A stretch of DNA of 64,000 nt, taken from contig NZ_LNFY01000009.1 in NCBI RefSeq assembly GCF_011057685.1, forward strand, positions 1 to 64,000, written 5' to 3'. This document shows, one piece after another, positions 35,461 through 39,616 of the stretch. The stretch's first letter is position 1. Each line of letters opens with the position of its first letter. The notes below the pieces were generated by a model. That model was not told the origin of the DNA. It made no database searches and saw nothing but the letters and a program-made list of their open reading frames with translations. Both the position numbers and the translations under genes were made by a program. Source of the stretch: Thermotoga sp. Ku-13t. GTDB lineage: Bacteria; Thermotogota; Thermotogae; Thermotogales; DSM-5069.

Positions 35461-36517
35461 GCTGTTCATTCCCATCATAGTAGCCTGCTTGATGATTGTA
35501 GGGCTTCTCGCCCTGTACAGTGCAACGAGGGATCACGGTCTGTACTTCGTCCGCAAGCAGATCGTCTGGGATATTCTCGGCATCGTTGCGATGTTTGCGA
35601 TGGTTCTGATGAGGGAACGCTATTTGAAGATCGCGGGCACAGTGCTTTACGTCGCTTCGATTTTTTCGCTCGTTCTGGTCCTCTTCTATGGTACGATTTC
35701 TGGTGGGGCGCGACGCTGGTTCGATCTAAAATTCGGTTACTTCCAACCTTCGGAGTTCGCAAGACTTTCTCTCCTGATACTCAACGCATCGTTGCTTTCG
35801 CAACCGAACAAGAGGAACTTCTACACCTCTTTTTTTCTGACTCTGATCTGTGTGGGTCTTGTGGCGATAGAGCCAGACCTCGGAACGGCGCTCCTGATGG
35901 GTGGGATCTGGTTCTCCATGGCGCTCGTCAGCCAGGTGAAGGTCAAGAGCTTGATGAGGATCGTGGTTGTGATATCCTTGATGGTGCTTTTGCTTTTCTT
36001 TTTTGGTTTGAAGGACTATCAGAGGGACAGGATCGTGTCGTTCTTCAACCCCGGAAGGTACGCTCAGGGTAGCGCGTACAACATGCTCCAATCGATCCAC
36101 ACGGTTGGCTCTGGTGGAGTTCTGGGAAGAGGTTTCCTCAAAGGTCCCGCGACCAGGCTCAAGTTCGTTCCGAAGAACCACACCGACTTCATCTTCTCGG
36201 TGGTGGGTGAGGAGTTCGGTTTTCTGGGAACAGCCCTTTTGATCTTTCTCTACTTTCTTCTGTGTTGGAGGATAGTGAAGGCGATCAAGTTCGCGAAGGA
36301 TGAGTTCTGGAGGATCCTGTGTTCCGGAGTGCTCGCGACCTTTTCGCTTCAGGTGTTCATAAACATGGGTATGTGCATGGGACTGGCACCGGTAACAGGC
36401 CTGCCGCTGCCGTTCGTGAGCTACGGTGGTTCAGCGACATTGTTTTTATCGATCCACCTGGGCCTGGTCATGAAAGCTATTGCGATCGCGAAGAGTGGAA
36501 CGGAGCTTCAAACGTGA
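35435..36517 (+). CDS. rodA: Peptidoglycan glycosyltransferase RodA (SEDS family)
   Basis: Polytopic membrane protein of 360 residues that polymerises lipid II during cell elongation. Typical SEDS segments are FQPSEFARL, AIEPDLGTALL with the conserved Asp, HTDFIFSVVGEEFG and LPFVSYGGSA. RodA is favoured over FtsW by length and the sequence style, with moderate certainty. Coupled to ttuA upstream. Confidence 0.9.
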   Translation: MPWENRRFELFIPIIVACLMIVGLLALYSATRDHGLYFVRKQIVWDILGIVAMFAMVLMRERYLKIAGTVLYVASIFSLVLVLFYGTISGGARRWFDLKFGYFQPSEFARLSLLILNASLLSQPNKRNFYTSFFLTLICVGLVAIEPDLGTALLMGGIWFSMALVSQVKVKSLMRIVVVISLMVLLLFFFGLKDYQRDRIVSFFNPGRYAQGSAYNMLQSIHTVGSGGVLGRGFLKGPATRLKFVPKNHTDFIFSVVGEEFGFLGTALLIFLYFLLCWRIVKAIKFAKDEFWRILCSGVLATFSLQVFINMGMCMGLAPVTGLPLPFVSYGGSATLFLSIHLGLVMKAIAIAKSGTELQT

Positions 36518-36527
36518 GGGGGCGTGG

Positions 36528-37175
36528 ATGATGCCTGTCACATCGGGAAGTGGTGGAAAAAGAAAGAGGGAGTTTCTCACCGACTTCTTCGTTTTCTTGC
36601 TGATCAGCATCTTCATCTGTGGCTTTGCGCTTTCCATCGTGTCTTTCTTCTACTATCTGAATCAAAAGAAACAGAACGAAAGAACCATCGTGGATCTGCA
36701 GCGAAGGATAGATGCTTTGTCGACGCGCGTTTCCAAACTCGAAGATCTGTTGAAATCGTCCAACATCGAGAAACTGATAACTTCGGCGAACTATCTTGCC
36801 AATTTCTCTACCGATTTGGAACGGATCATAGAAGAGCTCGTGGACGATCCCACCACGGGCTACATAAGATTATTCGTCATAGGACAGGAGAACGTCTGGG
36901 TGACCTTCAGGAAGGGCAACGAGATTTACTTCTCGAAGGAATTGAAGCCCGGTCTTGCTCCGTACAAGTTCTACTATTTCAAAGAACCATCCATACAGAC
37001 CCAGTACTCCATCAAGATTCCACGGGACTGTTCCATCGTTATAGGAAAACCTGGAATGGTTTTCTTCCTCGTCTACGGTGTAGGGACCACGAGGCATCCC
37101 ACAAAAGTCATCATATGGAAGGATGCCAGGGTGGACAATCTTGAAAAGGATTTTTCCCTCTACATACCGAAATGA
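36528..37175 (+). CDS. Single-pass membrane protein with coiled coil, unknown function
   Basis: About 215 residues: a basic cytoplasmic start (SGSGGKRKREF), one hydrophobic helix (residues about 20-43), a coiled coil (RTIVDLQRRIDALSTRVSKLEDLLK) and a beta-rich C-terminal domain ending KVIIWKDARVDNLEKDF. The layout resembles accessory cell-envelope proteins; its place right behind rodA suggests a role in wall elongation, which is inference. First of two adjacent ATGs taken, after GAGGGGGCG. Confidence 0.7.
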   Translation: MMPVTSGSGGKRKREFLTDFFVFLLISIFICGFALSIVSFFYYLNQKKQNERTIVDLQRRIDALSTRVSKLEDLLKSSNIEKLITSANYLANFSTDLERIIEELVDDPTTGYIRLFVIGQENVWVTFRKGNEIYFSKELKPGLAPYKFYYFKEPSIQTQYSIKIPRDCSIVIGKPGMVFFLVYGVGTTRHPTKVIIWKDARVDNLEKDFSLYIPK

Positions 37176-37490: not shown

Positions 37491-37526
37491 GAAAACAAAA
37501 GAGGCGGGAGCTGAAATTCCCGCCTC
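37491..37526 (-). terminator. Intrinsic terminator
   Basis: Arms GAGGCGGGA and TCCCGCCTC give a 9-bp perfect stem with an 8-base loop, followed on the minus strand by TTTTGTTTT. It overlaps the stop codon of the leftward gene and ends that transcript. Confidence 0.9.
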
Positions 37527-38157
37527 ACTGTGCGTCCACGATCTTTGTGTAGAGCTGGGCCATCCTGAGCGTGACTTTTGAGATCTGATGGAACACGTTC
37601 TGGGTGTTGCTTGCGACGTTCAGGATTTCTTCTTCGAACCTGGTTTTCTCTTCTTCCGGAAGCTGGTTCAATATCTTTTCAAACTCTTCCATCATCGCCT
37701 GGAACATCCTGGCCGCATTGCCGAGAGATTCTTCACACGTACTGAGCGACTTGAAGAATCCACCCACAAAGCCCACCCCTTTCGATACGAAAATTTCACT
37801 TTCAACTTCGTTCGGATAGACGATCATCGTCATCTGGGGATCAAGTTTTTCGAAGAATGCGTCGAATTCTGTGAGTATCGACGGTATTATGTACATCATC
37901 TTCCCGTTCGCGCACACGCCCCTGATTGCTAACACGATGGACTTATCGTCGTCCGCTTCGAAATGCATCACACCGCTGAAAGCACAGGATCCTTTCTCGG
38001 CATCGACGTGGATCGTGTGCACGGTCACCGTCGCGCTCTTCGCAGATTTAATCCCAAACTTTGCGGGATCTTCGATATACGTTCCGCGTGAAAGTTTCGA
38101 ACTCAACTGTTTCAGAACTTTCCTCTCCTCAGCAGTCAGAGTCCAGTACGGCTTCAT
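37525..38157 (-). CDS. Conserved-looking hypothetical protein
   Basis: A 210-residue soluble protein: an N-terminal helical start (LTAEERKVLKQLSSKL), a beta-rich middle (AKSATVTVHTIHVDAEKGSCAFSG is one part), and long C-terminal helices rich in Glu (MMEEFEKILNQLPEEEK). No signal peptide, membrane helix or known motif. It has its own ribosome site (AAAGGAGG) and an intrinsic terminator, so it is a single-gene unit. Function not recognised. Confidence 0.75.
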   Translation of the reverse strand: MKPYWTLTAEERKVLKQLSSKLSRGTYIEDPAKFGIKSAKSATVTVHTIHVDAEKGSCAFSGVMHFEADDDKSIVLAIRGVCANGKMMYIIPSILTEFDAFFEKLDPQMTMIVYPNEVESEIFVSKGVGFVGGFFKSLSTCEESLGNAARMFQAMMEEFEKILNQLPEEEKTRFEEEILNVASNTQNVFHQISKVTLRMAQLYTKIVDAQ

Positions 38158-38779
38158 GGTCCACCCTCCTTTTCAGTGTGGATGTGTCCCACGGAAACAT
38201 GTACACTTTCCTGTGGCATCCGTTTCTGGAAGCTCTGTGTGTGGAAAACTCATGAAACGCAACGGAAAAAGAAAGATCGTATAATTGTTCTTGAAAAGAA
38301 CGCTTGAGTGCCTGAATGTTCTACACTTGCTGACACCGCACGGTACGGGTTTAGAAAAATCTGTGAGTACTGCCGTGCGCACACTGAGAAACGTCATTCA
38401 ATCGTTGTTAAGGAATCCGAAAGGCTGTCCAGGTTCAGGAAAATCCCGTGAGGTATCGAGCTTCGGTGACAAAATGAAAAAACGCAAATGCAACGGGTCA
38501 GAGGCAGGTGGAAGTCGATCTTGAATGATTTCACAGGTGCGAACCAAAGCGTGTTTGGTTCACAGAAACGAACCAGCAGAGCAGAGCGCGACGGCGGAAC
38601 CGTTTGGACAACGCCACTCGAGCATAAAAACAGACAGAGGGCCTGCTGGCGCAGACCCTCTGTCCTTTTTGGTTCCATCCAAGGGGGGATAAGGGGGCTA
38701 TCCAGAAAAACATATTAATCCAAACTCGTTACGGGGTGATGAAACGAATTGTACGGAAAATTTAATGGAGGGATGAGAC
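38158..38779. other. Non-coding block of about 0.6 kb with several hairpins
   Basis: No convincing gene. From left: an inverted repeat CCACAGGAAA ... TTTCCGTGG in the leader of the leftward gene; TATAAT at 38280-38285 reading right; a hairpin with GCACGGTAC/GTACTGCCGTGC (38338-38378); a perfect hairpin GAACCAAA-GCGTG-TTTGGTTC (38541-38561); and a strong rightward terminator (38633-38670). This could be a small RNA gene or a long leader. It does not match the core motifs I know of tmRNA, RNase P, SRP RNA or common riboswitches. Confidence 0.45.
38633..38670 (+). terminator. Strong intrinsic terminator with no gene upstream on its strand
   Basis: GACAGAGGG and CCCTCTGTC form a 9-bp stem with a 14-base loop, followed by CTTTTT. 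The nearest rightward coding sequence upstream is more than 1.1 kb away, so it probably ends an RNA transcribed from the non-coding block. Confidence 0.85.
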
Positions 38780-39616
38780 GTGAACGTGATTCGAAGAAAG
38801 CGTCGTTTGGCGCCGAGTGTGTACGAGTTTCTGATCGAGAATAAACATATAGTTAGATACGCACAGCCTGGGCAGTTCGTCGTGATAAGACTGCATGAAA
38901 AAGCCGAGCGCATCCCCATAACCATCGCCGGGAAGGAAGGAGATTGCTTCCGCGCCGTGGTCAGGGCCGTGGGCAAGAGCACCTACGAGCTCTGCCTTGC
39001 CGAAGAGGGAAGTTCGATCCTGGATGTGGCAGGTCCGCTGGGAAGGCCCAGCGAGATAGATCTCTACGGGAACGTGATGCTTGTCGGTGGAGGGGTAGGT
39101 ATCGCCACGTTATTGCCCATCGCCGAAGCGCTCAAGGCCAAAGGTAACAGGCTCTACGTTGTGCTCGGTGGGAGGAGCAAAGAGTACGTGATCATGCTCG
39201 AAGAATTCTCGAAGATCGCCGACGAATTGATAGTCACGACGGACGATGGCTCTTTCGGCATCAAGGGCGTTGTCACGGACGGCATGCAGCTTCTGTTCGA
39301 AAGAGAGAAGATAGACATCGTCTGGGCCGTGGGTCCAACGATCATGATGAAGTTCTGCAGCATGAAGGCGAAGGAGCATGGTGTGAAGATCTGGGTGTCT
39401 CTGAACCCCATCATGGTGGATGGAACTGGCATGTGTGGTGCGTGCAGAGTGAGCGTGGACGGAAAGATCAGATTCGCCTGCGTGGATGGACCGGAGTTCG
39501 AGGGAGACCGGGTCGATTGGGACGAACTTTTTAAGAGGCTGGCTCAGTACAGGAAAGAAGAGGAAGAGAGCCTGAAACTCTTCATTCAAAAAGTGGGTGA
39601 TCTGTCGTGGCTGTGA
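38780..39616 (+). CDS. nfnA: NADH-dependent ferredoxin:NADP+ oxidoreductase, small subunit
   Basis: Subunit of the bifurcating transhydrogenase NfnAB, which couples NADH and reduced ferredoxin to NADPH. An FAD domain (ERIPITIAG) is followed by an NAD domain (MLVGGGVGIATLLPIA) and a C-terminal [2Fe-2S] site (GTGMCGACRV ... FACVDGPEF). 278 residues. GTG start after GGAGGGATGAGAC. The PyrK-like family name could mislead, but the fused partner gene settles the call. Confidence 0.93.
   Translation: MNVIRRKRRLAPSVYEFLIENKHIVRYAQPGQFVVIRLHEKAERIPITIAGKEGDCFRAVVRAVGKSTYELCLAEEGSSILDVAGPLGRPSEIDLYGNVMLVGGGVGIATLLPIAEALKAKGNRLYVVLGGRSKEYVIMLEEFSKIADELIVTTDDGSFGIKGVVTDGMQLLFEREKIDIVWAVGPTIMMKFCSMKAKEHGVKIWVSLNPIMVDGTGMCGACRVSVDGKIRFACVDGPEFEGDRVDWDELFKRLAQYRKEEEESLKLFIQKVGDLSWL

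Follow-up and report, generated by a model that had tools for sequence, protein, structure and literature searches.

The 64,000-nt stretch of Thermotoga sp. Ku-13t DNA analysed here (the window; NZ_LNFY01000009.1, positions 1–64,000) contains a block without coding sense ahead of nfnAB, at 38280–38670, which an initial annotation proposed as a structured RNA gene, either a small RNA or a terminator-controlled leader of nfnAB. The locus thus raises the question of whether an RNA is encoded here and, if so, on which strand and with what function. Our analysis points to a C-rich small RNA, very probably encoded on the minus strand at ~38626–38704. The terminator in the block ends this RNA, most of whose conserved part falls outside the reported interval, on its right.

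Features of the reported block

The four features named in the annotation, TATAAT, a GC-rich hairpin, a perfect 8-bp hairpin, and a strong terminator-like hairpin, were all found in the sequence (Table 1). Folding of 38292–38620, with the terminator left out, gave a z-score of +0.41, and 67 of 100 shuffled sequences folded equally well; the block reaches z −1.7 only once the terminator is counted in. The promoter scan returned no two-hexamer match at TATAAT. Moreover, ~38172–38591, which includes both block hairpins, gave no blastn alignment with the nearest relative (G001), the flanks of this stretch being 83% and 91% identical. A 15-mer around TATAAT is shared with G001 with one mismatch, and global alignment of this stretch with its G001 counterpart scored −31.5, compared with a mean of −50 and a best score of −29.5 among 200 shuffles; by these sequence measures, the block and its counterpart are likely related to some degree. 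A structured plus-strand RNA in 38290–38620 was rejected, given the absent folding signal and the little conservation. A decayed gene in the block was also considered, but although a frame of 95 codons is open at this place in G001, no gene could be demonstrated. Of the proposed 390-bp RNA gene, the terminator is real, and the remainder folds no better than chance. An Rfam scan of the window gave no family at threshold (three matches up to E 10, far under gathering scores), and a tRNA search of the window found none.

A probable minus-strand small RNA gene

The terminator, thought to have no gene to serve, belongs to the minus-strand RNA, which folds with a z-score of −4.43. By sequence, this RNA has its own promoter and its own terminator. 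The promoter is weak in the window genome, as is its −35 element, and consensus-like promoters are found in relatives such as G009, with TTGACA and a 17-nt spacer. We infer that the gene is transcribed. The idea of a small RNA gene was therefore right in kind, while its strand and extent had to be revised. In line with the check suggested initially, comparison with other Thermotogae revealed conservation of the minus-strand RNA and found none at ~38290–38590.

The hairpin may serve both sides, that is, the minus-strand RNA and the plus-strand upstream gene, because it directly follows a homologue of the 231-aa gene in six of the ten other genomes of the window's family (f1). In the window and G001, ~1.4 kb of extra sequence lies between the upstream gene and the hairpin and carries an ORF with 83% identity between the two.

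Table 1. Positions of the features discussed, in the window and (last three rows) at loci of other genomes
Feature	Position	Strand	Remarks
231-aa gene	36480..37175	+	no Pfam match
210-aa ORF	37525..38157	−	no Pfam match; window genome and G001 only, among f1 loci read
Reported block	38280..38620	none	unstructured, poorly conserved filler; TATAAT and two chance-level hairpins
TATAAT	38280-38285		in reported block
GC-rich hairpin	CGCACGG 38338-38344 with CCGTGCG 38373-38379		in reported block
Perfect 8-bp hairpin	GAACCAAA 38541-38548 / TTTGGTTC 38554-38561		loop of 5; in reported block
Type A small RNA gene, ~79 nt	38626..38704	−	putative 5′ end, from promoter spacing in relatives
Intrinsic terminator hairpin, then GTTTTTATG	38632..38665	−	strong terminator-like hairpin of the initial annotation; minus strand only in terminator scan; weak plus-strand T-tail too
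Middle hairpin TTGG-ATGGAA-CCAA, f1 form	38667..38680	−	predicted folds and covariation
C-tract 2 (CCCCCC), putative seed	38683..38688	−	invariant in alignment A2
C-tract 1 (CCCCC), putative seed	38693..38697	−	followed by TTATC here, usually CTATC
Putative −10 element TAATAT	38712..38717	−	from sequence and relatives
GTAAC motif	38728..38732	−	shared by f1 and part of the f3 genomes, ahead of the gene
nfnA	38780..39616	+	divergent from the small RNA
Gene with GGGGGATAGGG near type A	L177:~1197-1211, G041 C1:1402756	+	
comM starts	L176:1200-1212, L173, L180, L181, L196		Pfam check on G041 and G056
28-aa membrane peptide	L251:173 onward; L221-L223, L230, L258, L262	+ (L251)	

Spread through Thermotogota and a sibling RNA

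A DNA search of 61 genomes matched 38592–38790 at 92% in G001 and ~38669–38732 across the genera of f1. With up to three mismatches, CCAAGGGGGGATAAGGGGGC was matched in 27 of the 45 genomes of the order, nearly always once; those in G035 and a second match each in G044 and G038 look like chance. On the complementary strand of f3 genomes (Fervidobacterium/Thermosipho family), the elements follow each other as promoter (TTGAAA-N17-TATAAA in G022), ~8 nt, GCAGCGACCCCCCUAUCCCCCCUUGG or a near variant, hairpin, GC-rich hairpin, and U-run. Promoter, core, hairpin, and terminator keep this one order at differing genomic places. A covariance model built from 13 f3 sequences detected the RNA, referred to here as type A, in 11 of 11 f1 and 18 of 20 f3 genomes; the model is weak in the window's genus, giving the window and G001 E-values of 5e-3 to 1e-2, and the calls there rest on DNA matches. 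Its overall tally of 90 of 103 genomes does not amount to a gene count because of a noise floor at ~20–26 bits. Among the fetched loci, type A variants were read in families f5, f6, f8, f10, and f11.

A second RNA, type B, comprises ACCCCCCUAUCCCCCUUGAGAUACACCCCCCACGGC and a terminator, and features a third C-tract, CCCCCCAC. At E ≤ 0.001, the type B model has matches in 76 of 103 genomes, nearly always a single one, with a few of the weakest matches being type A loci (e.g. G005 C73); the window's genome also carries it (C1:461041–461115), and in G021 it is located at C1:934661–934735 (minus). The impression that family f4 is devoid of the RNA was not upheld, as weak type B matches occur in G045 and G057. 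In G041, the type B locus (C1:1944518–1944590; L178 ~1150–1230, minus) retains the C-rich core, has seemingly lost the terminator hairpin, and is possibly decayed. Near the type A locus of the same genome lies a HEARO RNA (RF02033, 153 bits; L043:536–740, minus).

Of 103 genomes, 96 contain the core 11-mer, some of these being chance matches in long ORFs, and a collection of 84,980 species, scanned for exact matches, gave eight records, every one from Thermotogota. Rfam returned no family match at the RNA for 14 loci of both types. Types A and B are a pair of related predicted small RNAs across Thermotogota. No description of such an RNA was found in the literature searched, with most subscription papers and all supplements outside reach, and within that literature the pair would be a so far undescribed, phylum-wide family of C-rich small RNAs. 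The T. maritima transcriptome paper reports a paucity of non-coding RNAs and 13 putative ncRNAs (Latif et al, 2013), which may already include the type B transcript. A structured-RNA search from 2021 that included a Thermotogae genome calls its own method ill-suited to small RNAs.

Covarying stems and exposed C-tracts

In the model-based alignment, 96% of the pair cells are kept, and none of 500 shuffles attains the observed scores; since the alignment had been built to fit the model, this result leans toward structure. Two of the 25 rows of alignment A6 proved to be false matches on the opposite strand; a recount that left them out gave 295 paired cells out of 303, with compensatory types at all seven terminator pairs. 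The hairpins of G005 and G007, where the automated framing was wrong, were read by eye.

The most constant part of the RNA is sequence rather than structure: the C-tracts are nearly invariant and, in predicted folds, single-stranded or located in a small loop. In many of these RNAs, a small stem, UAUC...GAUA, is predicted to hold the second C-tract in its loop, in agreement with RNAalifold. Most f1 middle hairpins read UUGG-AUGGAA-CCAA, with a GGA inside the six-base loop. The middle stem of f3 RNAs is longer and has a different loop, the UUGG-AUGGAA-CCAA loop being absent.

Proposed mode of action and relation to known small RNAs

Comparison across genomes establishes, at the level of sequence, the gene and its strand, the stems and terminator, the spread, the sibling, and a G-run before hfq (see below); from there, we infer Hfq binding, pairing, and repression. 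Most likely, types A and B would be trans-acting antisense RNAs over G-rich Shine–Dalgarno sites. The type A RNA would be transcribed from the minus strand, away from nfnA, and stopped by its own intrinsic terminator. Its exposed C-tracts, CCCCCC-UAU-CCCCC(C), joined by the third tract in type B, would serve as seeds that pair in trans with Shine–Dalgarno sites of five or six G, and this pairing would block translation initiation. We regard such a Shine–Dalgarno-pairing regulator as rather likely. If it is real, the pair, with a nearly invariant seed over most of the phylum, would be an example of deep conservation in trans-acting small RNAs. Thermotogota are mostly heat-loving bacteria, and seeds made of G–C pairs only would suit life at high temperature.

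C-rich motifs that bind Shine–Dalgarno sequences are found in FsrA and RsaE/RoxS of Firmicutes, from which the Thermotogota RNAs differ in having no family match. The 6C RNA of Actinobacteria displays its C-tracts in or near hairpin loops, but its layout is unlike that of the Thermotogota RNAs, which were unmatched in Rfam scans. IsrR of Staphylococcus has several single-stranded C-rich regions and an intrinsic terminator, and pairs at the Shine–Dalgarno sequence and start codon (PMC9410917). The Thermotogota RNAs share the predicted single-stranded C-rich tracts and the terminator, but belong to another phylum and match no Rfam family. LhrC of Listeria carries redundant UCCC/CU-rich sites in a loop, a single strand, and the terminator, binds Hfq, and covers a G-rich site ahead of the start codon (PMC4132741). 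Sibling copies with redundant C-rich sites are thus common to LhrC and types A and B; however, LhrC comprises five near-identical copies, whereas the Thermotogota types are two, diverged, and unlike it in architecture (PMC4132741). Searched as sequence families, IsrR, LhrC, FsrA, RsaE, and 6C gave no Rfam match to the window RNA or the 14 loci, a result that holds for those that possess an Rfam model. By analogy, the working mode would resemble that of the C-rich small RNAs of Firmicutes, a likeness of mode and not of family membership. If this is true, control by C-rich RNAs at the Shine–Dalgarno site would not be confined to Firmicutes.

hfq as a candidate target

We found hfq (PF17209) in 98 of 103 genomes. 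Each of the 30 hfq loci returned has five or six G just before the start (six in 25), and so do, with five or more G, 15 of 20 further leaders chosen across families; the five exceptions have G4 or GGAGG only. Pooled, five or more G precede hfq in 45 of the 50 genomes read, compared with 1 of 72 starts of other genes at the first 30 loci and with 8 of 30 in an nfnA control, all counts taking genomes as they come, uncorrected for kinship. Among ortholog pairs, hfq alone has the G-run in every one of the three genome pairings. In 29 genomes, the RNA encoded in the genome is perfectly complementary to the leader of its hfq gene over 7–9 nt, compared with 3–7 nt for 70 control leaders, the length at hfq being due largely to the G-run itself. 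The 26 sites classed as non-RNA include three RNA genes (L184, L186, and L190). Ranking by duplex energy was not decisive as a target test: hfq came 12th to 41st, and scrambled controls in G000 were not clearly worse.

These comparisons make hfq the best conserved candidate target, and we give it an even chance of being a real one. Taken as a whole, the reading of a C-rich minus-strand RNA that would cover Shine–Dalgarno sites, with hfq as its best candidate, appears probable to us. Repression of hfq would link the RNA chaperone and its RNAs in a feedback loop. It is more doubtful that the siblings, kept since early Thermotogota, need Hfq for pairing, silence hfq via its conserved G-run, and so set the level of the whole small-RNA system. 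Were such an autoregulatory circuit true, this level would be set in a phylum regarded as having few small RNAs.

Alternative explanations

Several other readings were weighed against a Shine–Dalgarno-covering RNA. The RNA may be real and the hfq G-run nothing but a strong Shine–Dalgarno sequence, the targets being lineage-specific mRNAs such as those of secreted Pseudothermotoga proteins, a possibility that we treat as open to doubt yet worth keeping. The G-run indeed sits at Shine–Dalgarno distance, five hfq leaders are exceptions, and the extended complement GGGGGATA shows no enrichment ahead of RTG relative to the permuted control GGGGGAAT (f1 114 v 125, f3 363 v 311). It is enriched over a second one, GGGGGTAA (f1 114 v 61, f3 363 v 177), all sums covering f1 and f3, 31 of 103 genomes; as a start-codon signal, it was set aside for exceeding just one of the two controls. 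Signal-peptide genes are favoured by leaders with five or more G in a 400-kb sample of G000 C1 (12/42 v 18/230 for cytosolic genes), but the excess is missing in G019 (2/33 v 24/282) and G041 (3/39 v 36/244). A signal-peptide regulon, suggested by 10 of 14 G000 sites read by eye, was accordingly not retained, with one sample supporting it and two not. A plain Shine–Dalgarno sequence is further at odds with the rarity of such runs at neighbouring gene starts and with hfq being the sole gene to recur over all ortholog pairings. Binding of a protein instead of mRNAs, by a CsrA/RsmA-type sponge or to another RNA-binding protein, is improbable: the GGA in the middle-hairpin loop of most f1 genomes resembles CsrA sites, but f3 RNAs lack this loop, in contrast to the C-tracts, which hardly vary.

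The other two readings dispense with the minus-strand RNA. Its position upstream of nfnA in all 11 f1 genomes, together with a hairpin T-tail on both strands in g1, would fit a plus-strand terminator-controlled leader or riboswitch of nfnAB, as initially suggested. However, the five f1 genomes belonging to g3 and g4 lack a T-tail after the hairpin on the nfn strand and have one on the opposite strand, in 18 of 20 f3 genomes type A is found elsewhere, away from nfnA, and in f8 the element follows nfnB; with T-tails and neighbourhood against it, a leader is scarcely credible. The f8 copy (L128:2603–2672, plus, G049), encoded on the nfnB strand immediately after that gene, represents a second, different link to nfnAB. 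Little more probable, and still very unlikely, is a DNA element without any RNA, such as a protein-binding site or an unusual structure of two C/G runs. Conservation of sequence rather than structure would suit it, yet promoter, spacing, covarying hairpins, and terminator are consistent in one orientation only.

Other candidate targets of the C-rich RNAs

For a Shine–Dalgarno-pairing RNA, the 400-kb samples of G000, G019, and G041 offer five or more G before 37, 30, and 57 genes, out of 376, 397, and 376 called by our own script. A T after AGGGGGGA, compared with a GGAGGG control, shows a weak excess (30/53 v 51/132, p 0.03) in three of 11 genomes, those complete for both motifs. The exact 11-nt complement GGGGGATAGGG occurs at starts of comM, encoding an Mg-chelatase-like ATPase, in four f3 genomes (G034, G041, G022, and G038) and one of f11 (G056). 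Together with hfq, comM would provide testable targets where, within the literature searched, small-RNA control has hardly been studied.

In three genomes of the genus Fervidobacterium (G041, G012, and G042), GGGGGATAGGG also stands directly before the start codon of a gene ~740 bp from type A. Finally, several Pseudothermotoga-family genomes encode a conserved 28-aa membrane peptide, MKKLWKILL...SFLAMLISA.GNIE.W, with the ribosome-binding site AGGGGGGAT.
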